Source: Ilumatobacter fluminis
Lineage (GTDB): Bacteria; Actinomycetota; Acidimicrobiia; Acidimicrobiales; Ilumatobacteraceae
Direction of reading: 5' to 3'
Length of the DNA stretch: 64,000 nucleotides
NCBI RefSeq assembly: GCF_004364865.1
Contig: NZ_SOAU01000001.1
Coordinates: 3,132,001-3,196,000, forward strand
The notes under the pieces are model-generated. The model was not told where the DNA came from and did not search any database. It was given only the letters and a program-made list of their open reading frames with translations. This document shows positions 5,388-63,644 of this stretch, piece after piece (the stretch's first letter is position 1; every line of letters begins with the position of its first letter). A program made the position numbers and the translations under genes.

Positions 5388-5409
5388 CCCGACACAGCAG
5401 CTCGGCGCG

Positions 5410-40167: not shown

Positions 40168-40983
40168 TCAGAGTTCTTCGGCGAAGCGGCCTTCGAGGCG
40201 ATCGAAGAGCCACCATCCGGCGAGCAGGACGACGATCGCCGTGCCGCCCAGCACCCCGAAGTCGATCAGGCGCGGCATGCGCAAGTCGTAGAGCAGGTTC
40301 CGGTACATGCGGACCGCCGTCGTGATCGGGATGTTGTTGTAGATCCGCAGCAGGGTCGGGTAGTCGGCGAACTCGTCCTCGACGAACTTCGGCGGGTACA
40401 CGATCGGGGTCAGGAAGAACCACGCCTGCATGACGATGCCCCACAGGTAGTTCATGTCACGGAAATAGACGCTCGCAGCGGCGAGCGCCAGGCCCAGACC
40501 CGTCGCGAACATTGCCAGGAGTGCGGAGACCAGCACCGCCACCGGCAGCCACGGCAGCACCATGTTGCCGGCGATCAGGAGAGCGATCGAGAGGACGCCG
40601 AGTTCGACGCCCAGGGTGAAGAGTCCGGCCATGACCGTCGAGATCACGAGGTGCTCACGCGGGAACGCCACCTTGCCGACCAGGGCCGCGTTGCCGACGA
40701 TGGCCCCCATCGACGTGCTGACCGCCACGCTGAAGAACGTCCACGGGACGAGACCGCAGAGCAGGAAGAACGCATACGAATCGAGGCCGCTCGGATCACC
40801 GGCCGGCGGCTCGGCGCGCAGCACGATCGAGAACGCGAACGTGTAGATCAGCATGAACGCGATCGGGTTCAGCAGCGACCAGCCCCAGCCGAGGATGCTG
40901 CGCTTGTAGCGGCCGCGCAGCTCTCGCAGGGTGAGGTTCCAGAGCAGCTCGCGGCGCGCGAACAACTCGGTCGCCGATGACAT
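40168..40983 (-). CDS. wzm: ABC-2 type polysaccharide export permease (Wzm-type)
   Basis: A 271-aa membrane protein with six helices. The N-terminal LLWNLTLRELRGRYKRSILGWGWSLLNP is the hallmark of Wzm/KpsM-type permeases (amphipathic helix, then Y-x-x-S-x-L-G-x-x-W). Other marks are FREHLVIS-like AFPREHLVIS and SVYFRDMNYLWGIVMQAWFFLTPIVYP near the C-terminus. It would form the channel for an undecaprenyl-linked glycan with the Wzt at 38269. A TAACCT box 8 nt before the ATG suggests its own start. The antitoxin gene follows 34 nt downstream. Confidence 0.92.
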   Translation of the reverse strand: MSSATELFARRELLWNLTLRELRGRYKRSILGWGWSLLNPIAFMLIYTFAFSIVLRAEPPAGDPSGLDSYAFFLLCGLVPWTFFSVAVSTSMGAIVGNAALVGKVAFPREHLVISTVMAGLFTLGVELGVLSIALLIAGNMVLPWLPVAVLVSALLAMFATGLGLALAAASVYFRDMNYLWGIVMQAWFFLTPIVYPPKFVEDEFADYPTLLRIYNNIPITTAVRMYRNLLYDLRMPRLIDFGVLGGTAIVVLLAGWWLFDRLEGRFAEEL

Positions 40984-43917: not shown

Positions 43918-43923
43918 AGTGTA
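43918..43923 (-). promoter_or_regulatory. putative -10 (TACACT) for the 43910 gene
   Basis: TACACT lies 7 nt before the ATG at 43910. Confidence 0.5.
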
Positions 43924-43970
43924 CGGGCGGAGCCGTGCGGGGTGTCGGACTCCCGGGGCGTCGGGCGGCG

Positions 43971-43976
43971 TAGGCT
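43971..43976 (+). promoter_or_regulatory. putative -10 (TAGGCT) for the glycosylphosphotransferase gene
   Basis: TAGGCT lies 11 nt before the ATG at 43988, a wider gap than at other sites. Confidence 0.35.
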
Positions 43977-43987
43977 TGGGCGACGCC

Positions 43988-45394
43988 ATGCGGGAGATGA
44001 CCAAGCCCAGCGACGACACGTCGTCCGACGGAACGCAGCTGTCGTTCCCGCCGATGCTCGAACGCGCCGTCGGCACCTTCGGTCGTCCCCTCGGCTGGAT
44101 GTGGGATCGCGGTTTCCGGTTCCTGTTCGTGCTCGACGCGATCGCCCTGTTCGGCTCGATGGTGCTGATCAACCTGGCCCGCTTCGGCTGGACGTGGCCC
44201 ACCTACCCGCGCAGCCACTACTGGATCGGTTTCTCGATCGCCACGCTCATCCACCTCGGCGTCAACTACTTCGCCGGCCTCTACGAGCGCGAGCCGCGCC
44301 TCGGCTACCGGCCGTGGCTCCCCCGCATCGCCGTCGCCATGGCGGTCGGCATCGCGTTCGACGGTCTCGCGGCGGTGCTCACCGACCGCTACCTGATGCC
44401 GCGCGCCAACCTGTTCGTGCTGTTCGTCGTCGCATCGCTGTGGTTGAGCGCCAACCGGACGGTGAGTCGCCACTTCGCGAACCGCCGTCGCGGACCATCT
44501 CGAGTGCTGCTCGTCGGCCACGGTGAGGCGGTTGCGCTGGCCCAGCGCCACTTCGCCGGCGACGCCGACGCCGAAGTGGTCGGCCAGGTCGAACACGCCA
44601 CCGAGCTGTTCGACGTGGTGAACACGACGGGCGCCACCGACGTGTTGCTGCTCGATCTGTCGGCATTCGCCGCTGCGTTCCCCGAACCGCTCACCGCGCT
44701 CGACCGTGAGGGCGTCGGCGTGCACCAGCGAGTCTCCGCCCGCGAGACCTTGCTCGGGTTGCAGTCGGTACGCGAGATCGCCGGTATGCCGTTCACGCGC
44801 ATGCGCACCCACGCCATGGCGGCGCACCAGCTGCGCCTCAAGCGGCTGTTCGACGTGATCGTCGTGGTGTTGCTGGCGCCGTTCGCGCTCATCGCGCTCG
44901 CCGCGTTCGCGCTGTGGGTACGCGTACGCGCCGGGTCGCCGGTCCTGTACCGCCAGACGCGTGTCGGCTGGCGCGGACGCCGCTTCGAGGTCGTCAAGTT
45001 CCGCACGATGGTGCACGACGCCGAGCAGGCAGGCCCGCAACTCTCGGGCAAGGAAGACGGGCGTGTCGTCAAGGGACTCGGATGGATGCGGGGCACCCGA
45101 ATGGACGAACTGCCTCAGCTCTGGAACGTGCTCAAGGGCGAGATGTCGCTCGTCGGTCCGCGCCCCGAGCGTCCCGAGATGATCGCCGAGTTCGAGAACG
45201 ACGTCGCCGGTTACGCCCGACGTCACGAGTTGCCGCCCGGCATCACGGGGTTCGCCCAGATCAACGGCCGCTACGAGACCGATCCTGCGTACAAGCTCGG
45301 CTACGACCTGCAGTACATCGTCAACTGGTCGCTGATCCTCGACGTGCAGATCCTGCTGCGCACGATCCTGGTCGTCGTCACTCGTCGCGTCTGA
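43988..45394 (+). CDS. exopolysaccharide polyprenyl glycosylphosphotransferase (WbaP/WcaJ class)
   Basis: Starts a glycan unit by moving a sugar-1-phosphate from an NDP-sugar to polyprenyl phosphate at the membrane. The 468-aa protein has four N-terminal helices (about 50-165), a Rossmann-like middle (SRVLLVGHG, about 173-181) and the catalytic bacterial sugar transferase domain (about 283-468): LKRLFDVIVVVLLAPF, FEVVKFRTM, RMDELPQLWNVLKGEMSLVG, PRPERPEM and GITGFAQINGR. The Asp-Glu pair in RMDELPQ and the PRPERPE motif are the known active-site features. The ExoA-like gene follows after 1 nt, so both are one operon. Confidence 0.94.
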   Translation: MREMTKPSDDTSSDGTQLSFPPMLERAVGTFGRPLGWMWDRGFRFLFVLDAIALFGSMVLINLARFGWTWPTYPRSHYWIGFSIATLIHLGVNYFAGLYEREPRLGYRPWLPRIAVAMAVGIAFDGLAAVLTDRYLMPRANLFVLFVVASLWLSANRTVSRHFANRRRGPSRVLLVGHGEAVALAQRHFAGDADAEVVGQVEHATELFDVVNTTGATDVLLLDLSAFAAAFPEPLTALDREGVGVHQRVSARETLLGLQSVREIAGMPFTRMRTHAMAAHQLRLKRLFDVIVVVLLAPFALIALAAFALWVRVRAGSPVLYRQTRVGWRGRRFEVVKFRTMVHDAEQAGPQLSGKEDGRVVKGLGWMRGTRMDELPQLWNVLKGEMSLVGPRPERPEMIAEFENDVAGYARRHELPPGITGFAQINGRYETDPAYKLGYDLQYIVNWSLILDVQILLRTILVVVTRRV

Positions 45395-49914: not shown

Positions 49915-50718
49915 TCAACTCGCAGGATCGAGCGGACCGGAGCGCAGTTCGCTCAGGACCTCGACCGCCCGCTCATAGGCTTCGACCGCTTCAGCGAGTT
50001 CGGCGGCGGGCACCTCGATGTCGGAGTAGTCCTGTCGGGTCCGAACGATATTGCCCGACTTGATGTACTCGCTCGGGTCGCCGTACGTCGGCACGCCAGT
50101 GAGCTTCGACGTCTGGTATTCCTCTCTCAGGGGTTCGGACAGGTCGAGGAATGCAGTGAGCTCGGACAGGACACGGGGTGTGTCGTCGATGAGGTCCTGA
50201 GCATCGATGTACGTGGCATGGCTGTACTCGAGGAGCGCGAGACGACGAAGATGGTCGACCCGCTTGATGTAGTAGCGCACGACGCGAAGCGGATCGACTT
50301 TCCAGTCGTCAGGATCGAGCGACCGAGCCATTGCGACGGTGCTCTGCACCGTTCGAACCGGCTCGCGCAGACTGAAGACGACGTACACGTTGTCGCGACG
50401 GAGCAGGACCGGATCGATCGTCGACCGATTATGCAGCACTTTGTCGAGAACGTATCGACCGCCGGTTTCAGCTGCTGCTGTATCGAACACGGTTTGCTTC
50501 AACCGCCAGAGGTCGCTCGTGCCTTTGTAGCTGCGATGGGTCTCGACGTATCCAGCGACCTCAGGATTGGAGTTGAGGATGTGACACAGCAGGCTCGAGT
50601 AGCTGCGCATGTGGCTCTGGATGAAGATGTAGCGCTTGGGTCGAACCACTTCGAGACCGGTCCGCGGATCGCTCACGAGCGCTCGCGCTCCTCGGGCATA
50701 CCGCTTGAGTCCGTTCAT
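49915..50718 (-). CDS. sulfotransferase-like protein with variant 5' loop
   Basis: A 267-aa protein. YIFIQSHMRSYSSLLCHIL (about 30-48) is placed like the 5'-phosphosulfate loop but lacks the usual P-K-x-G-(S/T) core and reads SHMRSYSSLL, as in some Stf0-like and uncharacterised families. VYVVFSLREPVRTVQSTVAM (about 111-130) matches the 3'-phosphate strand-loop-helix. The first 20 residues are basic. It could be a sulfotransferase or a PAPS-fold phosphotransferase relative. Its ATG overlaps the stop of the GT2-LicD gene (ATGA), so they are coupled. Confidence 0.72.
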   Translation of the reverse strand: MNGLKRYARGARALVSDPRTGLEVVRPKRYIFIQSHMRSYSSLLCHILNSNPEVAGYVETHRSYKGTSDLWRLKQTVFDTAAAETGGRYVLDKVLHNRSTIDPVLLRRDNVYVVFSLREPVRTVQSTVAMARSLDPDDWKVDPLRVVRYYIKRVDHLRRLALLEYSHATYIDAQDLIDDTPRVLSELTAFLDLSEPLREEYQTSKLTGVPTYGDPSEYIKSGNIVRTRQDYSDIEVPAAELAEAVEAYERAVEVLSELRSGPLDPAS

Positions 50719-53168
50719 CGTCGATCTCCTCGAATCTTCAGGAAGTGGTTTGCGGTGGTCCGTTTTGCCGCCGGCGGCAACCCCTCGTAGTCGTTGTACG
50801 TTCTCGTCAACACCCGTCGCGGGTCACGCGGCGCCGCAACCTCGACGCTCTCGAACTGCAGCGTCGTCGGCGGCAGCATCCAAGCGACCGGATACGACGC
50901 GCGCCTCGGGGGGTAGGCGGAGAACCATGACGTCACGTTCGTCGGCCGTCGCGGCAGGCGCGCCGTGACGACTGCGTTCAGTATTCGGTGCCAGCAGTAG
51001 CCCGGCAGGAGCCGACCGATGAGTATGCGGCTCAGACGACGATTCGCCTCGGGGAATCGGTACTTGGCCCGGAGCACCTGCCTGAGGAACCGAACGGCGC
51101 GGGCGCGAAGGCGTTCCTGCAGATACTCCGGCGATGCGGACGAATCGAGCGGGAAGATGTCGACGTTCGCACCAGCAGGATCGAGATCGGCCGGGAAACT
51201 CCACTCGAACACCGAATCGAGATGAACTACCTTCGCAAACGGAAGATGGAAACGACGGTTCGTCGTGTGGTGCAGCACAGCAAGGCCGTCGGGCATCTGG
51301 CTCGTGACGAGCCGCTCGAAGTCCGGACGCGTCATCCAGAGATCGATATCGTCGTCCCACGGGATATAGCCCCCGTGGCGCACGGCTCCGAGCAGGCTCC
51401 CATCGCCCAGCATCGGCTGCAGACCCTCCGACTCGCAGAACTCCAGGAGCCGCCGCAAGATCGACATCTGCTCAACGCGCGCCCGATCAGCGAGCGACGG
51501 ATCGATCGGCGGCATCCCATCGTAGAAGCAACCTGGTTCGTCCGCGATGACGACATCGGGCAGTGTGGTTGCCAGCTGCTCGAAGTCGCGCGGGCGTGCG
51601 AAGTCAGGAGCCGTTCGCGTCGCAGCGAAAGGATCACTCGGCTCAACCGCCCGAACCGGGCCGGCGAGCGCGACTCGACGGTCGACGACAGGCCGTGGCG
51701 CGACCGAGTGCAACTCGGCGACCGCTCCCTCGTTCGCTGCGACACCATCATTGCCACCGCTGTCCCGAAAGAAGAACCGAGTCTTCGTCGAGCCGTCGGG
51801 CTCGGTCGCGAGGTATCGCACCTCGACCAGCGTGGCGCCGAGGAAGCGTCGGCGGACCCGCCACCTCTGAGCGAAGCACCGGTCGTCGTGGACATAGCTG
51901 CGAATGAGCCGGAAACGCTGTTGACGAAGAGCGATCGACACATCGCCGAGCTCGTACTCGCCCGGCAGCACTGCGATCTCGAGGCGGCCGCTGAGACGCT
52001 GGTGCTCGTTCGCCTGCTCGAGCGAGGAGAGATCCAGTGTGTACGGGATCGATGCAGCTCGGAGAGCCCGATCGACCCGCCGCAGCGCTGCGGCGGTGCG
52101 AAGGTCGGCGCGCATCGAGTCGGATCGCCGTCGAATCGGCGACGTCAATCTGCGGTATCCGCTGCGAATGACCCGTTGGACCGGCCGAGCGAACGAGACG
52201 GCAACGGCGATGCCGGAACTCCGCCGAGCCCAGTAGCGGCGCCGCGACTGTCGACCGCGGTCGTACCGCGACCCCCAACCCGGATAGTGCTCGTCGAGAT
52301 ACGCGAATACGTCTCGTGTGAAGCGCGCCGACCGAAGCGGACTCTTCGACGTCCGCATGACCGGCAACCGAGCCAACAAGTGCGTACGCGCCAGGCGCTC
52401 CATCACGTCCGACTCGGCGACGCTTTCGATGCTGCTCAACGACACCCGGAACGACTCACACGAGTCGAAAATATCGTAGATTCTCGGATCGGCGCGCCGG
52501 GTGATCGCATCGGGGCGTCCGACGCGATACTGGTAGAGCCCCTCGTCGACCGCCTCGACACGGTTGGCCCGTGCGATGAGGCCGTACACGGCCGAGCTGT
52601 CTTCGAAGAGCTTGCCGGGCGGGAATTCGAACGACTCGCGTTCGAGGAGAGGACGAGCGTAGATCTTGTTCCAGGCGTAGCTGTGCGAGCCCCAGAGGAT
52701 CTCGGGGTTCTCGGACACCGACACGCCGAACTCCTCGACAGGGATCCGCAACCGGACTCGACCGCGCTTCTTGTTCCCGGATCGTTTGATTGCTGCGCAG
52801 ACCACGACTTCGCTCGATGTCTCGAGAGCCCGCGCGTACAGCTTTTCGAACATCTCCGGAACGACCCAGTCGTCAGCATCGACGAACCCGACATATCTGC
52901 CCGATGCCGCCGCCATACCCGTGTTCCGGGCGGCGGACAGACCACCGTTCTCGCGGCGGATGCAGGAGATCGGATGGCCGTCGCCACCTGCGAGCTCGGC
53001 GATCAGGTCAGGGGTCGAGTCGGTCGAGCCGTCGTCGACGACGATGATCTCGATCGACTGCAGCGTCTGCTCCTTCAAGGAGACGAGGCATTGCTGGATG
53101 TACGACTCGACGTTGTACGCCGCCACGATCACCGACACGGCCGGTGTGTCGCTGTGTTCAGGGTGCAT
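50715..53168 (-). CDS. GT2-LicD fusion: glycosyltransferase plus phosphorylcholine-transferase-like domain
   Basis: An 817-aa fusion. GT2 (about 10-260): VSVIVAAYNVESYIQQCL, EIIVVDDGSTDSTPDLI, NGGLSAARNTGM, FVDADDWVVPEMF (D-x-D) and KLFEDSSAVYGLI. Residues about 350-540 look like a second, weak nucleotidyltransferase-type fold. The C-terminal LicD domain (about 560-817) has MLGDGSLLGAVRHGGYIPWD followed by DDIDLWM (about 587-612). LicD enzymes move phosphocholine from CDP-choline to a sugar; with a phosphonate cassette nearby the substrate could be a CMP-phosphonate (inference). ATG 53168 chosen; GTG 53174 in frame. Confidence 0.85.
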   Translation of the reverse strand: MHPEHSDTPAVSVIVAAYNVESYIQQCLVSLKEQTLQSIEIIVVDDGSTDSTPDLIAELAGGDGHPISCIRRENGGLSAARNTGMAAASGRYVGFVDADDWVVPEMFEKLYARALETSSEVVVCAAIKRSGNKKRGRVRLRIPVEEFGVSVSENPEILWGSHSYAWNKIYARPLLERESFEFPPGKLFEDSSAVYGLIARANRVEAVDEGLYQYRVGRPDAITRRADPRIYDIFDSCESFRVSLSSIESVAESDVMERLARTHLLARLPVMRTSKSPLRSARFTRDVFAYLDEHYPGWGSRYDRGRQSRRRYWARRSSGIAVAVSFARPVQRVIRSGYRRLTSPIRRRSDSMRADLRTAAALRRVDRALRAASIPYTLDLSSLEQANEHQRLSGRLEIAVLPGEYELGDVSIALRQQRFRLIRSYVHDDRCFAQRWRVRRRFLGATLVEVRYLATEPDGSTKTRFFFRDSGGNDGVAANEGAVAELHSVAPRPVVDRRVALAGPVRAVEPSDPFAATRTAPDFARPRDFEQLATTLPDVVIADEPGCFYDGMPPIDPSLADRARVEQMSILRRLLEFCESEGLQPMLGDGSLLGAVRHGGYIPWDDDIDLWMTRPDFERLVTSQMPDGLAVLHHTTNRRFHLPFAKVVHLDSVFEWSFPADLDPAGANVDIFPLDSSASPEYLQERLRARAVRFLRQVLRAKYRFPEANRRLSRILIGRLLPGYCWHRILNAVVTARLPRRPTNVTSWFSAYPPRRASYPVAWMLPPTTLQFESVEVAAPRDPRRVLTRTYNDYEGLPPAAKRTTANHFLKIRGDRR

Positions 53169-53508
53169 GTTCACTCACTTGACATTCGCTTCGACGAGTC
53201 GAGATCCGCCGCCCGCTTCCGGCATCTCGTGGTCTGGCGCCGCCGACGTACCAGTCGAGGTACCGCCAGCGCTTCGGAGGGTTGGGTCCCAGCGGAGGGT
53301 ACCAGCTGGTCACCCGACTCAACCGGTACGCCACGGGTTCGCCGGGGAGACGTCGTCGAGCGCCGTCCGGAGCGACTCGGCGCGGTGCACGATCGCAAGC
53401 CGTTCGATCCGTACCGTCGCGTCCGGGCCGCACGGCTACGATCCAGGCGCGCCGATCTACCGGCCAGCCGGTTCGATCGACCGATGCGGCCGACCGGATG
53501 ACACAGGT
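53169..53508. other. intergenic region between divergent genes, about 350 nt
   Basis: No gene is convincing here. Short open stretches exist on the minus strand (about 53213-53345) without start, stop and codon pattern agreeing. No obvious TANNNT box is tied to the LicD gene start; the plus-strand gene has a GGAG ribosome site at 53509-53512. The region must hold promoters for both sides. Confidence 0.5.
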
Positions 53509-53520
53509 GGAGCTGCGAAC

Positions 53521-54852
53521 ATGACGACCAGGGCGATACTGCACGTAGGAATGCACAAGACCGGGAGTTCTTACCTTCAGAACACCCTGCACTCGAACCG
53601 CGACCGGCTGGCCGACGTGGGGATCCTGTACCCAGACGCTGGGCTGCATCTCGACTCACCTCAAGCGGGTTATCGCCACCTCGGGCTGCGTCGGAGTCTG
53701 GCTCAGGAGGGACCCGAGTGTTTCGCGATGCGATCGCTCCGTGACGAGATCGCGGCGGGCGACTTCCACACCGTGATCGTGTCGTACGAAGGCTTCTTCA
53801 CTCCCGATACCGACGCTGCGGATCTCCGGAGTGCGTTCGAGGAGTTCGACCCGACGCTGATGCTGGTTCTCCGGCACCCGGTCGACTACATCGAGTCGAA
53901 GTACCGCGAGTGGGTACGCCTGCTGAACGACACTCGCGATATCGATCGATTCCTCGACTGGCAGTGGCCATTTCTCGACGTCGTGGATCGAGCGGACGAA
54001 TGGGCAGCCGAGTTCGGCGCCGAACGGCTGTACATCCGGTCCTACGATGGCTTGGCTCAGCCGAGCGGCATCATCGAGGCACTCTTCGATCTCGTCCCGG
54101 GTCCCACCCCGGAACTCGAACCGAGCGCGCAGAGCAACCCGGGGCCATCGAACGAGTACACGCTTGCCAAACTTCTTGCGAACCGGCTGCGGCTCTCGGG
54201 CGTTCCGACCGGTGACCGTGCGGCTCGGGCGCTGGACAACGCCGACGGCCACCAAGGCCGCCTTCTGTCGGATGCTGATATCGCAGAGCTCGAAAAGCGC
54301 GCGGTGCCCCAGTTCCGTTCACTGTTGGAGCGCTACGGTGAGAACCCTGACTTGCGTTCGCTCCGAGCAGAAGAACCCCGCGACGAGCAGTTCTTCGACG
54401 CAGACCACCGACGGGCGGTACTCGACCGACTGCGCGCCGAACGGGCAGCTCACCAGACACGAACCGAAGAGCGGGCGCGGGAGCAGCATCGGCGCGTGGT
54501 CGAAGCCAAGCGGAACGTCGAACGTCTGCAAGCGGCTCGCGAGCGGCTCGGTCGCAAGACCGAACGAATCAACAGGCTCGAGGACACGTTGACAGACACG
54601 CGCGCCCAGTTGACGAGAACGCAGGCACTGGCGGAAGAGACGCAGCACTCGCTGGACGACACGAAGGCGCAGCTCACCCAAGCGCTCGATCGCCTCCAGG
54701 CCGTCCAGGCTCGCCTCCAGGAGACCACTGCCGAGCGGGCGTCACTGCGACGACGCCTCGACTTGCTCCAGTTCTGGAGGCCGAGGTCGTGGGCCGCGTA
54801 CACGGGCGCCCTCAGCGCATCCGTCCGGCGCCTGACTCGTCGGCGCAGCTGA
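53521..54852 (+). CDS. sulfotransferase-like protein with long C-terminal coiled coil
   Basis: A 443-aa protein. Residues 1-~290: AILHVGMHKTGSSYLQNTLH (5'-phosphosulfate loop, about 5-24), FHTVIVSYEGFF, LMLVLRHPVDYIESKYREWV (3'-phosphate site, about 118-137) and ERLYIRSYDG, matching the sulfotransferase-like family seen in actinobacterial glycan loci. Residues about 300-410 form a long coiled coil (REQHRRVVEAKRNVERLQAA onward) ending in a basic tail LSASVRRLTRRRS. GGAG at 53509-53512 lies 8 nt before ATG 53521, a clear ribosome site. It stands alone on the plus strand between two minus-strand operons. Confidence 0.82.
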   Translation: MTTRAILHVGMHKTGSSYLQNTLHSNRDRLADVGILYPDAGLHLDSPQAGYRHLGLRRSLAQEGPECFAMRSLRDEIAAGDFHTVIVSYEGFFTPDTDAADLRSAFEEFDPTLMLVLRHPVDYIESKYREWVRLLNDTRDIDRFLDWQWPFLDVVDRADEWAAEFGAERLYIRSYDGLAQPSGIIEALFDLVPGPTPELEPSAQSNPGPSNEYTLAKLLANRLRLSGVPTGDRAARALDNADGHQGRLLSDADIAELEKRAVPQFRSLLERYGENPDLRSLRAEEPRDEQFFDADHRRAVLDRLRAERAAHQTRTEERAREQHRRVVEAKRNVERLQAARERLGRKTERINRLEDTLTDTRAQLTRTQALAEETQHSLDDTKAQLTQALDRLQAVQARLQETTAERASLRRRLDLLQFWRPRSWAAYTGALSASVRRLTRRRS

Positions 54853-54886: not shown

Positions 54887-56044
54887 TCAACGACCGAGGC
54901 TGCGGGCCAGAACGCCGACCAGCTCGTCGGTCGAATAGACCACAGGATTGTTACCCAGGCGTTCGACGTTCACCGTCGCGGCCAGCTCGGTCAGCTCCGA
55001 CTCGGACCGGACGCCGGCCTCCATGAGGGTCGATGTCAGCCCGAGCCGTCCGAGTAACTGGTTGATCTCTCGTCCGACCGATGCCGCGTCACTCGTGCCG
55101 AGGGCCCGACCATATGCGTCGACGATCTGAGCCATTGCTCGCTCGTGGCTGGCCCTGTCGAGGCCGGGCTGGAGCCGGTCGACGAGCACAGCGTGATCCG
55201 AGACGAACTGCCCGAGCGTCAACGCGACGGCGTTCCCGTGGTCGATGCCGTACCGCTTGGTGATGCCGTACGACAGCGCGTGCGCCGCGGTCGTCTTGGA
55301 GACGTCGATGGCACGCCCGGCCAGATGACTTCCGAGCGCCATGCATCGTGCCGTCTGCGGCGTCGGATCGTCCACGAATGGTTCGATCGCCGGGAGCAGC
55401 AGGCCGAGCGCGTGGCGTGCCGAGCGGCGACTCCGGTCGGTTGCGCCCACTGCCCACAAGCTCTCCGTTGCTTGGCAGATCGCGTCCACTCCCGACGTGG
55501 CACGTTGGTGAGCACTTCCGCTCAGGGTCAGCCCCGGGTCGAGCGCAACAGCAGCTGGGCGGAGACCATCCCCGGCTACCGAGTACTTGTCGCTCCCGAT
55601 GTAGACCACCGCGAAGTGGGTCGCTTCGCTGCCCGATCCCGACGTCGTCGGCACCAGGAACAGCGTTCGAGAGCTGAACTCGACCGGACTGCCGGCGACA
55701 ATGGCGGATTCGACAGCGCGTTCCCCAACGCCGTCGAACGCGCACAGCAACTTCGCCATGTCCATCGGGCTGCCACCGCCGACCCCGACAATCAATTCGG
55801 GGTCGTGATCTCGGAGAATCGCCAGGCCGCGGCGCAAGTCGTCGACCGATGGGTTGGGATCGAAGTCCGACCACCGGCGGACCGATGCGAACATCTCGAG
55901 CTCGGCCAACCGAGCAGCGGCGCCGCATCGTTCATACGACGAGCGACCCGTCACCAGCAAGACACGCGAAAAGCGTTCGTCCCGAGCACGGTCGACCAGC
56001 GCGTTCAGCGCCCGCTGTCCGTAGTAATGGGCGGTCGACGCCAT
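54887..56044 (-). CDS. iron-containing alcohol dehydrogenase, probable phosphonoacetaldehyde reductase
   Basis: A 385-aa group III (iron-type) alcohol dehydrogenase: NAD site GVGGGSPMDMAK (87-98), TTSGSGSEAT, then metal ligands Asp in SGVDAICQATES and His in TTAAHALSY and GIDHGNAVAL. In phosphonate clusters this family (PhpC/FomC type) reduces phosphonoacetaldehyde to 2-hydroxyethylphosphonate. Its place directly after Ppd and PepM, joined by a TGATG overlap, is the reason for the specific call; sequence alone gives only the family. Last gene of the operon read from 62.7 kb. Confidence 0.82.
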   Translation of the reverse strand: MASTAHYYGQRALNALVDRARDERFSRVLLVTGRSSYERCGAAARLAELEMFASVRRWSDFDPNPSVDDLRRGLAILRDHDPELIVGVGGGSPMDMAKLLCAFDGVGERAVESAIVAGSPVEFSSRTLFLVPTTSGSGSEATHFAVVYIGSDKYSVAGDGLRPAAVALDPGLTLSGSAHQRATSGVDAICQATESLWAVGATDRSRRSARHALGLLLPAIEPFVDDPTPQTARCMALGSHLAGRAIDVSKTTAAHALSYGITKRYGIDHGNAVALTLGQFVSDHAVLVDRLQPGLDRASHERAMAQIVDAYGRALGTSDAASVGREINQLLGRLGLTSTLMEAGVRSESELTELAATVNVERLGNNPVVYSTDELVGVLARSLGR

Positions 56045-57177
56045 CAGTTCCGCAGTGCAGCGACGAACAGGTCGAGACTCTCGCGCGGCGTTCGAGTCGG
56101 CCGACCCAGATCGCCACGAGCTCCGGGACGCACCTGCACCTCCAACAATGTCGGTCCTTCAACGGCCAGCATCTCGCTGATCGATTCTCCGACACGTTCG
56201 ACATCGTCGACCGTTGCCGCCCACCGATATCCGACTGCTGCGGCAAGCGCTGGGATGTCGACCGATCCGATCGACGTCGGCTGGCCGCCGACGCTGTCGT
56301 GCACACCGTTGTTGAACACGACGTGCCGGTAGTTGGTCGGCGCGATGTCTCCGATCGTCGCCAGCGTCCCCGTATGCATCAAGAGAGCCCCGTCTCCGTC
56401 GAGGCACCAGACGTCACCGTCGCGCTGGTGGGCGAGTCCGAGTGCGATGGCCGATGCGTGCCCCATCCCGCCCACGGTGAGGAAGTCCTGGTCGCCACGC
56501 TCTCCAGCGGCGACGCGGAGCTCGAACAACTCTCGGCTGAGCATTCCGGTCGTCGACACGATCGCTGCGCCAACAGGAACGTGGGCGACGACGGCACCCA
56601 AGGCGTCCTCCCGAGTCGGGAGTCGCTCCGCTCCCTCGAGCCCGAAATCGAGGGTGCCCCCGGCCGGCTCGAATGTTCCCTTCTCGACCAGCAGAACGAA
56701 GGGCGACCGGCGTTCGAGCGCCGTGGACACGGCCGATTTGACGACGGACTCGGCCTCGGCGGGGTCGCTCGGAAGGACCGTGTGCGGGACTTCCATTGCC
56801 TCCAGCATCGGAACCATGACACGCCCTTGTTTGACGTGCTGGGGTTCGTCCTTGACGCCCGGTTGTCCACGCCACCCGACGAGGACCACCATCGGGACGC
56901 CGTACACCTCCGGATCAGCGAGCGACAAGAGCGGGTTGACAGCGTTGCCGACACCGGAGTTCTGCAGGTAGACCAGCGCCGGTCGGCCAGACGCCAGGAA
57001 GTGGCCCATCGCGACACCGACCGCAGCCCCTTCGTTGGCGGTGATGAGGTGTGACTCGCGAGGCAACTCGGCCATCACGTGCTGACTGAAGGCCTTCAGC
57101 AGGCTGTCCGGCACACCGACGAAAAGGTCGACGCCCGCTTCTCCGACGGTCTCGACGAATCGTTGTGGCGAGATCAT
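56044..57177 (-). CDS. ppd: phosphonopyruvate decarboxylase
   Basis: Thiamine-diphosphate enzyme that decarboxylates phosphonopyruvate to phosphonoacetaldehyde, pulling the unfavourable mutase step forward. 377 aa, the length of Ppd/AepY enzymes rather than the 550 aa of general pyruvate decarboxylases. Marks: [40 protein letters not shown] (catalytic Glu), [20 protein letters not shown], and the ThDP motif [13 protein letters not shown] ending [12 protein letters not shown]. Its ATG overlaps the pepM stop (ATGA) and its stop overlaps the reductase ATG, so stoichiometric synthesis is likely. Confidence 0.93.
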
Positions 57178-58484
57178 CCCATGTTCTCCGGAACGATCTG
57201 GAGGACGTCGGCGATCGACGCGAGCATGGACTCGGCCTCGAAGGATCGTCCGTGCTCGAGGATCGTCTGGGCGACACGCTGCATCTGGGGGTAGGACGCT
57301 CGAAGCATGTGATTCGCGTAGATGACGACACGAACTCCTGCGTCCGCAAGCCGCTCTTCGGTGATCTCGTTGTACGAGGTCGGGACAGCCACGATCGGCA
57401 CTTGCTTCGAGAAGCGGCTGGCGTGATCGCAGAACTCCAGCACCTCGTCGGGTGACTTCTGCCGACTGTGGATCATGATGGCGTCGGCGCCTGCATCGAT
57501 GTACGCCTCGGCACGTTCGACGGCGTCCTGCATACCGGCCTCGAGAATCAGGCTCTCGATACGGGCGATCACCATGAAGTCGTCCGTGATCTGAGCCTGC
57601 TTGCCGATCTGGATTCGAGCGCTGAAGTCGTCGATCGAGGACTGTGTTTGTGAGACGTCCGTCCCGAAGAGAGAGTTCCGCTTCAGGCCCTCCTTGTCCT
57701 CGATGATGACGGCCGACACACCCAGCCGTTCGAGCGACCGGACCGTGAAGGGGAAGTGCTCGGGCTTCCCACCGGTGTCGCCGTCGAAGATGAGGGGTTT
57801 GGTCGTGACCTCGAAGATCTCGTTCACCATCTGCAGACGAGAACTGATGTCGACCGCCTCGATGTCAGGCTTCCCCCGAGAGGTCGAGTCGGTGAGCGAA
57901 CTCGACCACATGGCATCGAACTCAACCTTGCGGCCACCCCGTTCGACCACCGTGCTCTCCACGACGAGGCTCGACAGACCACTGTGTGCCTCCATGACGC
58001 GCACGATCGGCTTATTGGCCAGGAGCCGGCCGAGTCGACTCAGACGTACGTTCGGGGTCGTCCCGATCTGCTTCAACGAGGTGTTCAGCTGGGTCGACGA
58101 GATTCCCTCGGTGTAGGGAACCTCGACGAGTCGCCCGCCCCAGCCCGACAGCGTGTCGATCACACGCTGCCGGGTCTGCTGCTGCACACCGGTTCGCCAG
58201 TCGTCGCCGTGCACGACGATGTCCGGACGGATCTTTTCGAGGTTGGGCACATAGTCGAGCGTGTCTTGTGCAACGACCGAAGACACCGCCTTCAGATTCT
58301 CGATCACGGTCTTGCGCTGCTCGAAAGTCATGTGCGGCAATCGCTTGTAGCTGGCGATCGCCTGGTCGGTCAGGAGGCCGACGGTGACGTCACCGAGTTC
58401 GGCCGCCTGTTGCAGGACGTTGATGTGGCCGGGGTGTACCAAGTCGGCGCTCATACCGACGTACACGCGAGCGCGTTCGGACAT
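57174..58484 (-). CDS. pepM: fusion of cytidylyltransferase-like domain and phosphoenolpyruvate phosphomutase
   Basis: A 436-aa two-domain enzyme. Residues 1-~135 are a nucleotidyltransferase of the glycerol-3-phosphate/ethanolamine-phosphate cytidylyltransferase kind: [18 protein letters not shown] with the HxGH motif at 17-20, [11 protein letters not shown] and EGISSTQL (the I-S-T-T-type motif, about 126-133). Residues about 150-436 are PEP mutase, with the catalytic loop [10 protein letters not shown] (about 259-268; the E-D-K-x(5)-N-S signature separates it from isocitrate-lyase relatives) and DGDTGG. PepM makes phosphonopyruvate from PEP, the first step to nearly all phosphonates; the N-terminal domain could activate a phosphonate with CTP. 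GAGGAG at 58498-58493 is 8 nt before the ATG. Confidence 0.93.
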
Positions 58485-58492
58485 TCGATGTT

Positions 58493-58498
58493 CTCCTC
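58493..58498 (-). promoter_or_regulatory. strong ribosome binding site (GAGGAG) for pepM
   Basis: GAGGAG lies 8 nt before the ATG at 58484, in a 66-nt gap after the preceding gene. It fixes the start and is unusual in this window, where most starts lack a Shine-Dalgarno. Confidence 0.7.
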
Positions 58499-58550
58499 GG
58501 GGTTCGAACGCGACAGGTTATCCCGTCGGTTGCCGCCATCGGCTCCGCTG

Positions 58551-61088
58551 TCACGCTCCGTCGAGAACGGTCGGGACGGGATACATCGCCTCCAGGACGC
58601 GACCGACGCGGTCGTCGGCGATATCGCGGCCCACCTCGTCACGATCGGTCTCCCCGATGCCGAACATCGAAGGTCTTCCCGACACGGTCGCTTGGAGACG
58701 GTCCAGGTCGGCCGCCCGCCCGACATCGACGAAGAACTCATCGCACTCGGTTCGTTCGACCGCACGGGCGTGTGCGAGTGCCCAGTACGGAGCAGCGTCG
58801 AGTCGGAGTGCGGATGGCTCGCCTGGATAGCGGTCGTCCATCTCTTCGAGAATCGATCGAGTCATCGGCTGAGCGACGCGTGCGAGCGGACGGTCGGGGC
58901 CACGCCCCCAGCGCTCGCCAGCGAAGCGCACGACTCCGTCGTGCGCACCAGGTGAAGACGATGTCAGGCAGGCTCCGAAACGGCGGTCTGCGGTCAAACG
59001 GAGCTTCGGTAGCCCGCCGACGCCGAAGAAGTCATCGACGAACGTTTCACGACCGAAGTATGTGTGGTGTGTGACCAGGATGAAGTGTTCCGACAACCCG
59101 GGTATCCGGCGGACGGCTGATCCGATGAGGCGGGGATCGGGAGATGCCAGAGCACCTTCCGGAACGAGTTCGCGCGGGCCGACGACGATCAGCGCTGACT
59201 CGTCCGACGCCCACGACGGCCGCGGCTCTGCTGTCACGAGGTAGACGTTCCGCACGAATGGCGCAAGGAGTGCCAGCGACCGCATGCTGTAGCGAAGACG
59301 GCAGTCGGCATGCAGCCGGCTCGACGGTGACCGGTCGACCGACCCGGGCAGGAGATACGCCACGTCGACAACTGATGCTCGGTGGCCCGGCCAGAGAGTG
59401 CCGCCTCGAACGTCGGACCCGGCACCGACATCGCCAAGGGCGCCCCAATCGGCCCGACTTGCCCGAGGGTCGATCGCCACCAAACCCGACGCAGACGGCG
59501 CCAGCAACTCGATCTCGAGGGAGGACTCGGGTGCCTCGCTGCCCGCCGGTCCGACTCGAATCGCAGTGGCTCGTCTCAGGACGTCGGCGTCGAGCGCACC
59601 GACGTCGCCGATCACGACGAGTGTGTCATCGAGTCGGCAGCAGATCATGAATCCGCCCAACCTGGGTCCCGTCGAGCGCAGCCCTTCGAGCAACTCCAGC
59701 CGGCGAGACTGCTCGACACCGACCGAGAGCTTGCCGCGAGCCGGCGCGACCAGCAGCCCAGGTACCGATCTCGAGAGCTCGTCGACCAACGTGCCGCGCC
59801 ACGTCGACGGCGGTTCTCTGACCGAAACAACCGATGAGCGAGCGGCGACACCGACCTGGGCCGCCTTTCCGAGGCGATGGCTCGTCTCGACAAGTGCACG
59901 CTCGATCCGGGGCGAGCGGGCCGCGGCTCGACGAACGGCGTCGGTGGCACCGTCGCGGAGCTGCACCATCGCCCCGAAGCGCGAGGCACGGGCGGTAGCG
60001 AGCCGACGACGAGTTCGACGGAGGTCCCCGCTGAGTTCTGTTGTCTGACGGAGCAGCGCACGCTGCGACTCCGCGACTCGCTCGCGGCCGAAGTGGCGGT
60101 CAGGACCACGCTCGAGGAGTTCGATGATCGCTCGCGCGCACGCCTCCCCCGCCGTACCGCGCTCCACGAGCTGCGTACCGACCCACGTTTCGTACGCCGA
60201 ACGGTCGGCGGCGATCGCCGCAGCGTCGATCGCCGCCCGTTCGAGGTCACCACCAGGCTGCCAGCCGACGCTCCGAGTCGAGACCGAACTCTGGCTCCAC
60301 TCGGCGGGGCTGAGTTGCCGGTGACGATCGCGGGCTACCGACGGTCGGTCGACCACGACCAGCGGGAGGCCGGCACACGCCGCATCGAATGCCGCCCCCG
60401 AGACGTCGCTCAGCACGAAGTCGTGCGACTCGAACAAGTCTGCGACCGAGGCCTCGGCTCCGACGATCTCGCAGCCGTCGGGAACATCGCCGCGACCCAA
60501 CCGTCCACGGTCGGCGTGATGCAGCTTGATCGTGACGCTCCCCTCGAACTCACGGAAGCCGGGGAGCACCGAGTCGATCGACGACAGATCACCGTACGTG
60601 GGCATGTACAAGGCCCGGATCGGTTTCGAGGCCGGTCTTCTCGGTCGATCGCCATCCTTTCCGAACACGGCGTCGAGCGCCGGGTTGCCACAGGTGCGCG
60701 TCACTGCGAACCCGGAGACCAGCGATTCGGATGCCGGCCCGTAGAGCAGGTTCAGGTCCGGCAACGATCGCCACGCACCGAACTGGTATGCCTCCTTGGC
60801 GACGCTGTACTGCTGGGCCACCACGAGTGTTCGCCGGAGCAGCCGCTGAGGCAAGACCGGCGTCTGGCACACGATGAGCCGAAACCTTCCGTCGAGCAAT
60901 GCCAAGTCGCGATGGTCGACCCAGGTCACGGCCGCACCTGGAAAGTGTCCGGCGAGGAACTGGTCATCGACACCGAAATCCTGCTCACGTCGGTCGACGA
61001 TCACGGTGACATCACCGAGGTGCCGAGCGATGGGCGCGTAGTGATGGGCCTGATACTGATTGCTGAGCAAGAACGCGATGTCGTTCAT
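58551..61088 (-). CDS. TagF-like domain fused to a degenerate Stealth-like domain
   Basis: An 845-aa protein. Residues about 1-340 resemble CDP-glycerol glycerophosphotransferases: ALYMPTYGDLSSIDSVLPGF (about 160-179), VTIKLHHADR and DFVLSDVSGAAFDAACAGLP (about 228-247; TagF family I-T-D-x-S-S). About 345-400 is a helical linker. From about 570 the sequence follows Stealth: CRLRYSMRSLALLAPFVRNV, VYLVTAEPRPSW and VRRIPGLSEHFILVTHHTYF, ending VLEAMYPVPT. CR1 reads DVAYLLPGSVD instead of (D)-x-Y-T-W-V-D-G-x-D, and the N-S-H and N-D-D residues of CR3 are gone, so the Stealth half is probably inactive. First gene after the ABC pair and before pepM. Confidence 0.78.
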   Translation of the reverse strand: MNDIAFLLSNQYQAHHYAPIARHLGDVTVIVDRREQDFGVDDQFLAGHFPGAAVTWVDHRDLALLDGRFRLIVCQTPVLPQRLLRRTLVVAQQYSVAKEAYQFGAWRSLPDLNLLYGPASESLVSGFAVTRTCGNPALDAVFGKDGDRPRRPASKPIRALYMPTYGDLSSIDSVLPGFREFEGSVTIKLHHADRGRLGRGDVPDGCEIVGAEASVADLFESHDFVLSDVSGAAFDAACAGLPLVVVDRPSVARDRHRQLSPAEWSQSSVSTRSVGWQPGGDLERAAIDAAAIAADRSAYETWVGTQLVERGTAGEACARAIIELLERGPDRHFGRERVAESQRALLRQTTELSGDLRRTRRRLATARASRFGAMVQLRDGATDAVRRAAARSPRIERALVETSHRLGKAAQVGVAARSSVVSVREPPSTWRGTLVDELSRSVPGLLVAPARGKLSVGVEQSRRLELLEGLRSTGPRLGGFMICCRLDDTLVVIGDVGALDADVLRRATAIRVGPAGSEAPESSLEIELLAPSASGLVAIDPRASRADWGALGDVGAGSDVRGGTLWPGHRASVVDVAYLLPGSVDRSPSSRLHADCRLRYSMRSLALLAPFVRNVYLVTAEPRPSWASDESALIVVGPRELVPEGALASPDPRLIGSAVRRIPGLSEHFILVTHHTYFGRETFVDDFFGVGGLPKLRLTADRRFGACLTSSSPGAHDGVVRFAGERWGRGPDRPLARVAQPMTRSILEEMDDRYPGEPSALRLDAAPYWALAHARAVERTECDEFFVDVGRAADLDRLQATVSGRPSMFGIGETDRDEVGRDIADDRVGRVLEAMYPVPTVLDGA

Positions 61089-61140
61089 GAGGGGCTACTC
61101 CCGACGGGCTCTGACGGCCAGTGCCGCCGTCACGCCGCCA

Positions 61141-61914
61141 TCATCGCTCATCCGAGTACTCGGACAGCACGGCCTCGGTTTCCCCGTCCATGCGAATCTC
61201 ACCCTGATCGAACCAGATCGATCGCGAACAGGTCTTTCGAATCTCCGACAAGTTGTGGGTCACCATCACGATGGTGCCCGCAGCCTCGCGGATCTCATCG
61301 AGCCGAGCCAGGCTTCTCTCGCGGAAGTCCTTGTCGCCGACTGCGAGCGCCTCATCGATCAGCAGGATGTCCGGTACCCGGAGGGTGGCAATCGAGAAGG
61401 CCAAGCGTGCTCGCATTCCCGATGAGTAGGTGTTCATCGGACGCCCCATCGCGGACCCAAGTCCAGAGAACTCTGCCACCTCGTCGAGTCGCTCGTTCAC
61501 CTCGTCTTTGCTGAGCCCCAGCGCAAGCCCGCCGAGCATCACGTTCCGATAGCCGGAAAGGGTCGGCTTCAGAGCAGCTCCGACGCCGAGCAGGCCAACC
61601 TCCCCCCGCACCTGAATCGAACCGGCGGAGAGGGTCTGCAGCCCGGCGATCGCACGCAGCAGCGTCGATTTGCCCGACCCGTTCGAGCCGACGATTCCTA
61701 CTGCTTCTCCGACGTTCACCTCGACCGATACGCCTCGGACGGCGTGCACCTCCGTCGATCGCCGGCCCCGCATCGCCCGATTGAACAACCCGCGCGCCGT
61801 GAGTTTCGGTTCTTCGTACACCTTGTATCGCACGTGCGCCCCGTCCACGGCGATCGCGACGGGACCGAGCGTCTGCTTCGACTCGGACACTGCGGTCGGT
61901 TCAGTCTCGGCCAT
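61141..61914 (-). CDS. wzt: ABC transporter ATPase for polysaccharide export (Wzt-type, short)
   Basis: A 257-aa ATPase: Walker A GSNGSGKSTLLRAI (about 71-84), LLGVGAALKPTLSGYRNV (Wzt-type Q-loop neighbourhood), signature YSSGMRARL (about 160-168), Walker B ILLIDEALAVGDKDF and VTHNLSEIRKTC. It lacks the C-terminal glycan-recognition domain of the 38269 protein and so resembles teichoic-acid (TagH-like) or KpsT-type ATPases. ATG at 61914 overlaps the permease end by 14 nt. The next gene starts 52 nt downstream. Likely exports the phosphorus-containing glycan of this operon. Confidence 0.92.
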   Translation of the reverse strand: MAETEPTAVSESKQTLGPVAIAVDGAHVRYKVYEEPKLTARGLFNRAMRGRRSTEVHAVRGVSVEVNVGEAVGIVGSNGSGKSTLLRAIAGLQTLSAGSIQVRGEVGLLGVGAALKPTLSGYRNVMLGGLALGLSKDEVNERLDEVAEFSGLGSAMGRPMNTYSSGMRARLAFSIATLRVPDILLIDEALAVGDKDFRERSLARLDEIREAAGTIVMVTHNLSEIRKTCSRSIWFDQGEIRMDGETEAVLSEYSDER

Positions 61915-62749
61915 ACCGTTCCTCTCCGCGTCGGAACCACACGAAGCCGACGAACACGATCGCAAGTGCCCACAAGATCGCGTAGACGAGCTGGTCGGAC
62001 CGGAAGGTGCCGCCCATGATGGCCCACCGTTGCAGCGTGATGAACGAGTACATCGGGTTCGCCGTGAAGAGGTAGCGGTACGCGCTGTCGCTGGCCACAT
62101 AGGCGTCCACACTGAAGAGCACACCCGAGGCGTACAGCAGGAGTCGGAAGAAGAACGGAAGGAGCTGAATCGTGTCGACGAAGTGGTTCGCCAGGCGGGC
62201 CGCGATCATCGCTGCGCCGAGCGTGAAGAAGACCTGTACGGCGAACAAGGGGACGACCGCCAGCCACCGAATCGACGGTGGCTCGTTCGTCACCACCGCT
62301 ACGAAGACGATGACCACGAAGTTCGGTACGAAGGCGAGCGACTCCGTCAGCGTCGTACTCATCGGCAGCATCGCTCGCGGGAACCGCACCGCCTTGATGA
62401 CTCCCTTGTTCGTGACGATCGATTTCGCGCCGGACATCGTCCCCTTCTGCGTGAACTGAAACACGAACAGCCCGACGGTCAGAAACAAGATGAAGTTGTC
62501 GACGCCGCGGTCGGACTTCAGGATGACACCGAAGATCAGATAGTAGACGCCGATGCTCAGAGCTGGGTTGAGAAGGTGCCAGACATTGCCCAACACGCTC
62601 GTGATCTGTCGGTGGCGCAGCTCATTCGTAGCGACGTGCCACATATAGCTCCGCCGCTGAACGATCTCTCGGAGATACACGGGCAATCTGGCCGACGCGT
62701 GTGCATCGTGCAGCTCCGGCAGCCCTTGGTCACTCACGGCGCCTTGCAT
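61901..62749 (-). CDS. wzm: ABC-2 type polysaccharide export permease (Wzm/TagG-type)
   Basis: A 282-aa membrane protein with six helices. Near the start WHVATNELRHRQITSVLGNVWHLLNP matches the amphipathic entry helix of TagG/Wzm permeases; FRFPRAML-like AVRFPRAMLPMSTTL and, at the C-terminal side, LFTANPMYSFITLQRW follow. It is the first gene of the minus-strand operon that continues through Wzt, the TagF/Stealth fusion, PepM, Ppd and the reductase. A TAGGCT box lies 7 nt before the ATG. Partner ATPase is the overlapping downstream gene. Confidence 0.92.
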   Translation of the reverse strand: MQGAVSDQGLPELHDAHASARLPVYLREIVQRRSYMWHVATNELRHRQITSVLGNVWHLLNPALSIGVYYLIFGVILKSDRGVDNFILFLTVGLFVFQFTQKGTMSGAKSIVTNKGVIKAVRFPRAMLPMSTTLTESLAFVPNFVVIVFVAVVTNEPPSIRWLAVVPLFAVQVFFTLGAAMIAARLANHFVDTIQLLPFFFRLLLYASGVLFSVDAYVASDSAYRYLFTANPMYSFITLQRWAIMGGTFRSDQLVYAILWALAIVFVGFVWFRRGEERYGRD

Positions 62750-62813: not shown

Positions 62814-63644
62814 GTGTCGCCTCTTCATTGGATCATCCTGACGCGGGGTGACCGTCCGGCCGAACTCGCTGCGGCGGTTCGATCGGTCGATGCGCCCACG
62901 ACCGTGTTGGTCAACGGCGACGCCGAGGTGAACGCTCCGGGAGCCGAGGTGATCAGCACGGGCCAGAACCTCGGCATCCCGGCCGGGCGCGACTGGGCCC
63001 TCCGGCAAACCAACAGCGATGCCGTGGGGTTTCTCGATGACGACGCTGTAGCCGGCGATGGGATCGGCGACCTGATCCGTCGGGCATTCGCAGCCGACCC
63101 GACGATCGGGGCCGTCGCGCTGCGAATTGTCGATGAGCACCAGGCAACGGCGCGCCGGCACGTTCCGCGTCTCGGCGGCCGGCGGGCCGAGATCGGCGGC
63201 CCGGTGACGCTGTTTCTCGGTGGTGCATGTGCGATCCGACGTGACGCATACCTCGATGCGGGCGGCTACTGGGGCGAACTGTTCTATGGTCATGAGGAGG
63301 TCGAGCTCGCCTGGCGATTGATCGATCGCGGGTGGCGGATCATGTATCTCCCCGATGCCTGTGTCTTCCACCCAAGGACCGACATCGGCCGACATCCGGA
63401 CGGCTGGCGACTGACCGGCCGAAACCGGGTGATGATTGCTCGTCGCACTCTGCCCTGGACCGTTGCCGTCGCTCACACGACCGCTTGGCTCCTGATCGGC
63501 CTCGCCCGTGCACCGGGGCGCTCCCAACGATCGGCGTACGTCTCCGGCTGGCGCCAGGGTTGGCGGCGGCCGGTCGATCGATCCCCGATCGCGTGGAGCA
63601 CCGTCTGGAGACTCAGTCGTCTTGGAAGGCCGCCCGTCGTCTGA
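62814..63644 (+). CDS. GT2-family glycosyltransferase
   Basis: A 276-aa GT-A enzyme with a GTG start. It shows WIILTRGDRPAELAAAVRSV (about 6-25), VLVNGDAE, STGQNLGIPAGRDWAL, VGFLDDDAVAGDG (D-D-D metal site, about 75-87), GGACAIRRDAYLDAGGYWGE and FYGHEEVELAWRLIDRG (acceptor signature). The last 70 residues are basic with a short hydrophobic segment and could sit on the membrane. It is the last glycan gene of the locus, transcribed away from the phosphonate/export operon. Confidence 0.88.
   Translation: MSPLHWIILTRGDRPAELAAAVRSVDAPTTVLVNGDAEVNAPGAEVISTGQNLGIPAGRDWALRQTNSDAVGFLDDDAVAGDGIGDLIRRAFAADPTIGAVALRIVDEHQATARRHVPRLGGRRAEIGGPVTLFLGGACAIRRDAYLDAGGYWGELFYGHEEVELAWRLIDRGWRIMYLPDACVFHPRTDIGRHPDGWRLTGRNRVMIARRTLPWTVAVAHTTAWLLIGLARAPGRSQRSAYVSGWRQGWRRPVDRSPIAWSTVWRLSRLGRPPVV

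Follow-up and report, generated by a model that had tools for sequence, protein, structure and literature searches.

Whether a bacterium that carries genes for phosphonate synthesis in one operon with a glycan exporter decorates its surface glycan with phosphonate, and which protein would make the transfer, is the question raised by a locus of Ilumatobacter fluminis. The window analysed here is a stretch of 64,000 nucleotides (nt) of contig NZ_SOAU01000001.1 (positions 3,132,001 to 3,196,000), and coordinates are counted from its first letter. Six minus-strand genes, running from 62749 to 54887, encode Wzm, Wzt, an 845-amino acid (aa) fusion protein, a cytidylyltransferase-PepM, Ppd and an iron-type alcohol dehydrogenase (Fe-ADH). 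In gene order, the joins are a 14-nt overlap, a 52-nt gap, a 66-nt gap, a 4-nt overlap and a 1-nt overlap, and the open reading frames and family matches confirm what an earlier note on this DNA had described: six consecutive genes on one strand, overlapping except at the joins of 52 and 66 nt. 2-Hydroxyethylphosphonate (HEP)-type phosphonoglycans are known in actinobacteria. We propose, with a probability of about 0.72, that the six genes are a phosphonoglycan operon in which HEP would be made, activated with cytidine monophosphate (CMP), and transferred by a TagF-like domain of the fusion to a glycan that Wzm-Wzt would export. The gene set, its motifs, the limits of the operon and its recurrence elsewhere can be read directly from the sequence, and gene association is our basis for inferring the transfer, its acceptor and export.

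The last three genes form a cassette that is strongly predicted to yield CMP-activated HEP from phosphoenolpyruvate (PEP), the four chemical steps being deduced from the named enzyme families. The PepM protein (57174-58484, minus strand) is a Fom1-type cytidylyltransferase-PEP mutase in which a PF01467 domain is fused N-terminally to PF13714. It scored 410 bits against TIGR02320 (cut-off 320), and the EDKX5NS motif was present in it and in 85 of 85 fetched relatives. PepM would convert PEP to phosphonopyruvate, which the decarboxylase Ppd (56044-57177, minus strand; TIGR03297, 438.2 bits against a cut-off of 312.5) would convert to phosphonoacetaldehyde. The Fe-ADH (54887-56044, minus strand; PF00465), the position and conserved motifs of which are common to 17 cassette relatives, is the proposed phosphonoacetaldehyde reductase that would form HEP, and the cytidylyltransferase domain of PepM would turn HEP into CMP-HEP. 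This domain matched the structure of the Streptomyces wedmorensis Fom1 cytidylyltransferase (5x3d) with an E value of 4e-65, and the printed chain residues of 5x3d agree with Fom1 of the S. wedmorensis locus used for comparison (L019). According to the available part of PMC6697681, the S. wedmorensis Fom1 domain produces CMP-HEP, and a PF01467 fusion was found on 23.6% of the PepM proteins in that inventory. The earlier note had seen in the fused nucleotidyltransferase a route to attachment of the phosphonate, and CMP activation is indeed supported by the structure match and by the same partial source.

Neither a transaminase for 2-aminoethylphosphonate (AEP) nor a PF12804 nucleotidyltransferase was found in Pfam and NCBIfam scans of the six operon genes (the whole genome was not searched), and the earlier statement that an AEP aminotransferase is lacking holds for the operon. 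The only class-V aminotransferase among the scanned flanking genes (L004:12281-13537) is a SufS cysteine desulfurase. In its own genome, the window's Ppd and Fe-ADH had no second homologue at an E value of 1e-5. There were three PF13714 matches, a stronger one lying at 2744711, and the window gene is the one that was checked against TIGR02320.

The same three genes, in the same order, make up the starting module of the fosfomycin pathway in S. wedmorensis, with identities to the window proteins of about 71-72% for PepM (71% over 441 aa), 58% for Ppd and 51% for the reductase. This likeness would fit a cassette that feeds the synthesis of a small phosphonate for release, of the type of fosfomycin or hydroxymethylphosphonate, but we regard such a product as very improbable here. 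When the open reading frames longer than 150 aa of the S. wedmorensis locus were compared with 104 kb around the operon, only the trio (with antisense frames) and one ABC-type ATPase region found a match, and the other genes of that locus are absent from this interval. The S. wedmorensis locus contains no TagF-like or LicD gene, whereas the scanned neighbours of the operon are mostly glycan genes (distant enzymes, HEPD and MpnS were not searched). A surface-polymer fate of the phosphonate is well supported by the sequence, and an exported glycan would be its likely place.

The exporter consists of Wzm (61901-62749, minus strand), the ATP-binding cassette type 2 (ABC-2) permease encoded by the first gene of the operon, and the ATPase Wzt (61141-61914, minus strand; ATG at 61914, the open frame being given from 61923). 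Wzm scored 30.7 bits against PF01061 (cut-off 26.9), and its best NCBIfam match was galactan_ABC_perm (E 7e-20, below the cut-off of that model). Wzt matched PF00005 and, below their cut-offs, was most similar in NCBIfam to teichoic-acid and galactan export ATPases; no Wzt_C domain was recognised in it. By Pfam and NCBIfam, the operon thus contains the pair of ABC-2 permease and ATPase that marks ABC-dependent glycan export, and the family matches of the cassette and of this pair support the earlier proposal of a HEP pathway tied to glycan-export genes. Elsewhere in the window there is a second exporter pair, a Wzt with a Wzt_C domain (38269-39471, plus strand) and an ABC-2 permease (40168-40983, minus strand), near a bacterial sugar transferase gene (43919-45394) and an RgpF-type gene (27137-30352).

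A genome of the same family (G023) has the cassette behind a related Wzm-Wzt pair at a corresponding locus, where the flanking genes are also related. The identities to the window proteins were 55% for Wzm, 62% for Wzt, 80% for PepM, 63% for Ppd and 56% for Fe-ADH, and the glycosyltransferase-like gene upstream of the operon (62814-63644) has a 56% identical counterpart at the same place. In G023, Wzt is followed by a 390-aa protein that narrowly missed the LicD cut-off, then by a fusion of a family 2 glycosyltransferase (GT2) and LicD (153 bits), and then by PepM; a 502-aa protein and a 509-aa LicD protein (27.7 bits, cut-off 22.6) lie between PepM and Ppd. It appears from these genes that G023 has kept the exporter and the cassette and that the putative transferase has been swapped for LicD-type genes. 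The 502-aa protein (L094, 656-2164) had no Pfam match and reads like a decayed LicD relative.

This second locus bears on the possibility that HEP is placed on a lipid or a surface glycoprotein instead of an exported polysaccharide, in which case Wzm-Wzt would share the operon for no other reason than a common role in shaping the cell surface. There is a precedent for caution in the accessible part of PMC8931226, where the phosphonate genes of Prochlorococcus SB are described as lying among capsule genes, yet the phosphonates were in the protein fraction and not in the polysaccharide fraction. We nevertheless think this explanation rather unlikely for I. fluminis: the exporter genes, the gene of the putative transferase and the cassette sit tightly together as one unit, and the pairing of exporter and cassette recurs in G023.

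The third gene (58551-61088, minus strand) encodes the fusion, which by its open reading frame, Pfam and relatives has an N-terminal TagF-like domain, a middle part and a C-terminal Stealth-like domain. The N-terminal domain (aa 1-345; 60054-61088, minus strand) is a divergent TagF-like domain and the proposed CMP-HEP transferase. Its distant BLAST relatives adjoin the cassette in Methylonatrum kenyense (L044) and the marine gammaproteobacterium HTCC2148 (L022), and these relatives scored 31.5 and 55.6 bits, respectively, against PF04464. When a four-row profile of the subfamily was aligned with eight canonical TagF domains using hhalign, the probability was 98.4 and the E value 9e-15 over 159 columns. 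In this alignment, H190 lies on the TagF histidine and D228-x-S230-G231 on the DYSS motif. Residues Y94, K98, H190, H191, D228, S230 and G231 are conserved across nine relatives. The domain resembles the TagF polymerase (3l7i) in its GT-B type second half with aligned His and DxS motifs; it differs in that TagF has a WHG motif, which is missing from the subfamily alignment, where a Y94-x-x-x-K98 stretch lies roughly at that place, and in that the domain itself missed the Pfam cut-off. An AlphaFold model of the domain, made from a three-row alignment, was poor (mean pLDDT, the predicted local distance difference test, 51.7), and its PDB matches to LpxB, epimerases and TagF at TM (template modelling) scores of about 0.3 carry little weight.

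TagF uses cytidine diphosphate (CDP)-glycerol as its donor. By analogy, the TagF-like domain would transfer the HEP phosphonate from CMP-HEP to a hydroxyl of the growing surface glycan with release of CMP, and Wzm-Wzt would export the decorated glycan. We hold with moderate confidence that the domain is the CMP-phosphonate transferase of the operon. HEP has a hydroxyl as well as a phosphonate that can be activated, so that the domain could in principle act processively on CMP-HEP and form poly(hydroxyethylphosphonate), a teichoic-acid-like polymer with a phosphonate-ester backbone for export by Wzm-Wzt. The likeness of Wzt to teichoic-acid export ATPases, below the cut-off, touches on this idea, which we think has only a slight chance of being right. 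Likelier than such a polymer is that TagF-like and LicD proteins are two interchangeable lineages that would supply the missing CMP-phosphonate transfer.

A cytidylyltransferase gene was found near the member of the TagF-like subfamily in seven of nine loci, fused to PepM in three (the window, L044 and L022) and stand-alone in four (L127, L133, L134 and L135). The subfamily therefore seems to go with CMP activation of the donor, and not with HEP in particular. Of the other two loci, L125 has no cytidylyltransferase on its contig, the same metagenome-assembled genome (MAG) carrying PepM on another contig (L016), and L136 has none within 20 kb. The idea that the subfamily is exclusive to HEP was rejected, as relatives adjoin stand-alone cytidylyltransferases elsewhere, including a flagellar locus on an Escherichia coli plasmid. 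At that locus (L127, NZ_CP104632.1), 4303-6747 encodes the TagF-like domain and 9612-10007 a glycerol-3-phosphate-type cytidylyltransferase that scored below the cut-off; the locus perhaps serves flagellin modification.

The C-terminal domain of the fusion (aa 576-845; 58551-59363, minus strand) matched PF11380, the second conserved region (CR2) of Stealth proteins, at 59.4 bits (cut-off 39.4), and the CpsY structure 8j2n at an E value of 7e-19. CR2 was the only one of the four Stealth regions recognised, CR1, CR3 and CR4 giving no match in the Pfam scan. The description of this gene as a TagF/Stealth fusion therefore stands for TagF as recognised through relatives and for Stealth CR2 through Pfam, and not for a Pfam-level TagF assignment or for the other Stealth regions. 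Six canonical Stealth proteins share 66 invariant residues, of which the domain kept 21, whereas in a leave-one-out control canonical Stealth proteins kept 66/69 to 66/75 of the invariants of the others. The lost motifs are DxVYTWVD, NSHAIE and NDD, the first being aligned to gaps, where the exact count is uncertain. Because so few invariants remain, the Stealth-like half is probably non-catalytic; it would no longer transfer hexose phosphate, and it may hold the acceptor. A 925-aa relative encoded in MAG G718 (L125:3496-6270) has the same domain arrangement with intact Stealth motifs, which suggests that the fusion formerly had an active Stealth half. The G718 fusion adjoins an open frame that contains a LicD-like region.

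This loss bears on the earlier assignment of the Stealth part as a transferase, which we rejected, and on a broader alternative, in which the phosphonate would actually be transferred by the Stealth-like half or a downstream LicD fusion (50715-53174), while the TagF-like domain would add, for example, glycerol phosphate. No PF11380 gene was found in any of the 49 related loci (search set, 49 loci and six genomes). In favour of LicD, 23 of the 49 relatives carry such a gene close to the cassette, and LicD-type genes stand in for the fusion in G023; the TagF-like relatives that adjoin stand-alone glycerol-phosphate-type cytidylyltransferases also speak for this alternative. However, the cytidylyltransferase encoded in the operon is Fom1-type, with no separate enzyme of the glycerol-phosphate kind encountered there, and the LicD fusion lies beyond the end of the operon. 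On balance, we consider the alternative possible but not likely, and the TagF-like domain the better candidate.

The end of the operon on the 54887 side is set by a plus-strand gene (53521-54852) that converges on it. This gene has a sulfotransferase-like start and a long coiled-coil tail, and it matched no Pfam family at an E value of 0.001. Past it, a GT2-LicD fusion (50715-53174), a sulfotransferase and a complete Stealth gene lie on the minus strand from 53174 to 48168. By this arrangement, the operon stops before 53521-54852 and these three genes belong to another transcript; a single operon extending to 48168 was rejected, and the earlier placement of LicD and a second Stealth gene in the same operon falls with it. 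Upstream, the operon is bounded by a divergent glycosyltransferase-2-like gene (62814-63644, plus strand) with weak NCBIfam glycosyltransferase matches.

To see how general the association is, the best 80 of 459 confirmed loci were fetched, and all three cassette genes were found in 70 of them with the window proteins as queries. Neighbouring genes were surveyed in 49 of the 80, picked mostly for long stretches (L084 was not included). A wrong-contig PF04464 row of L024, which was PepM itself, was removed, L024 being retained through another row; two PF04464 rows of L018 are one gene. The LicD count required the LicD motif, and wrong-contig LicD rows of L050, L068 and L024 were dropped. A PF04464 gene was present in the fetched stretch of 20 of the 49 loci, in 12 of these within 300 nt of a cassette gene. 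Of 55 PF04464 rows, 27 fell inside the loci, which together make up 0.94 Mb of about 175 Mb; by length, 0.29 rows would be expected there, an expectation that ignores the clustering of glycan genes. With the 23 LicD loci, 37 of 49 have TagF-like or LicD proteins, which makes these the best candidates for the CMP-phosphonate transferase.

Several observations weigh against our interpretation. The Fe-ADH scored 136.9 bits against its best NCBIfam model, TIGR03405 (PsrA-type), well below the cut-off of 423.7. The TagF-like part of the fusion reached no Pfam model, and its own genome had no PF04464 match at an E value of 0.01; the TagF profile match spans only columns 136-300, the second half of the domain. 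The domain was found in none of the other 395 genomes of the phylum that were searched, and it is therefore not a general part of the system. A complete Wzm-Wzt near the cassette was seen in the window and G023 only, and weak Wzt matches near the cassette occurred in L019, L020, L035 and L084. Neither TagF-like nor LicD was found in 12 of the 49 fetched stretches, some of them short (L009, L011, L012, L019, L020, L045, L050, L052, L062, L068, L075 and L078). These include both Streptomyces loci and three loci of Nitriliruptoraceae, the group that neighbours the window in the PepM tree. Because surface-glycan genes cluster generally, association of neighbours is not proof of specificity.

The cassette relatives span Actinomycetota, Pseudomonadota, Bacteroidota, Campylobacterota and others, and the trait is patchily distributed. 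In a sample of the class, a Fom1-like gene at an E value of 1e-60 was found in six of 296 genomes, the window's own included, and the sole genome of the same genus in that sample had none at this threshold. In the PepM tree, rooted at its midpoint, the window has G023 as its sister (98/86). Both belong to an actinobacterial clade of 17 rows (100/100) that also contains Glycomyces, Nitriliruptoraceae, Nonomuraea and Streptomyces, including S. wedmorensis. The Fom1-like genes of four other class members (L095, L096, L097 and L098) fall outside this clade, which suggests a separate acquisition.

The closest known arrangement is in Glycomyces. Glycomyces NRRL B-16210 is reportedly a phosphonoglycan producer, published in a 2014 study, and its locus L015 would be the one behind that glycan. 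L015 has, like the window and in the same order, a Fom1-type PepM (72% identical), Ppd (61%) and Fe-ADH (57%). A PF04464 gene lies directly upstream of its pepM at 155 nt, whereas in the window the TagF-like domain is in the adjacent fusion. The combination of a HEP cassette and an adjacent TagF-like gene is thus found in both, the TagF-like character in the window being read from relatives and profiles. The two loci differ in that nothing in L015 matched Wzm, Wzt or the fusion of the window at an E value of 1e-6, and in that the TagF-like protein of L015 is of a different lineage (best BLAST match to the fusion, E 0.02). The gene combination had been called distinct; this does not hold for the trio with an adjacent TagF-like gene, already present in L015, and does hold for the Wzm-Wzt in front and the TagF-like/Stealth fusion, which are unusual. 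The pnt clusters for AEP tailoring, as presented in the available part of PMC6697681, similarly have a PepM fused to the nucleotidyl-activating function, followed by a surface transferase; they use AEP with MobA-like PF12804 enzymes, whereas the window has PF01467 and HEP, and its operon lacks an aminotransferase.

Already known are the HEP cassette, the nucleotidyl activation that goes with it and phosphonoglycans of the HEP type in actinobacteria. The new elements are the coupling of the cassette to Wzm-Wzt, a TagF-like/Stealth fusion in which the Stealth half has decayed, and survey results that suggest TagF-like and LicD proteins as transferases that alternate with one another. In an open-access literature search we found no statement naming a CMP-HEP transferase or an alternation of TagF-like and LicD proteins, and the part of PMC6697681 available describes the steps from activated phosphonate to surface modification as unknown. 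The operon and the 49-locus survey name two testable protein families for the transfer step, and the operon offers a compact unit of six genes for such tests. As the accessible part of PMC9381506 describes HEP esters as a notable share of marine high-molecular-weight organic phosphorus, it matters for the marine cycles of phosphorus and methane which organisms make HEP polymers.

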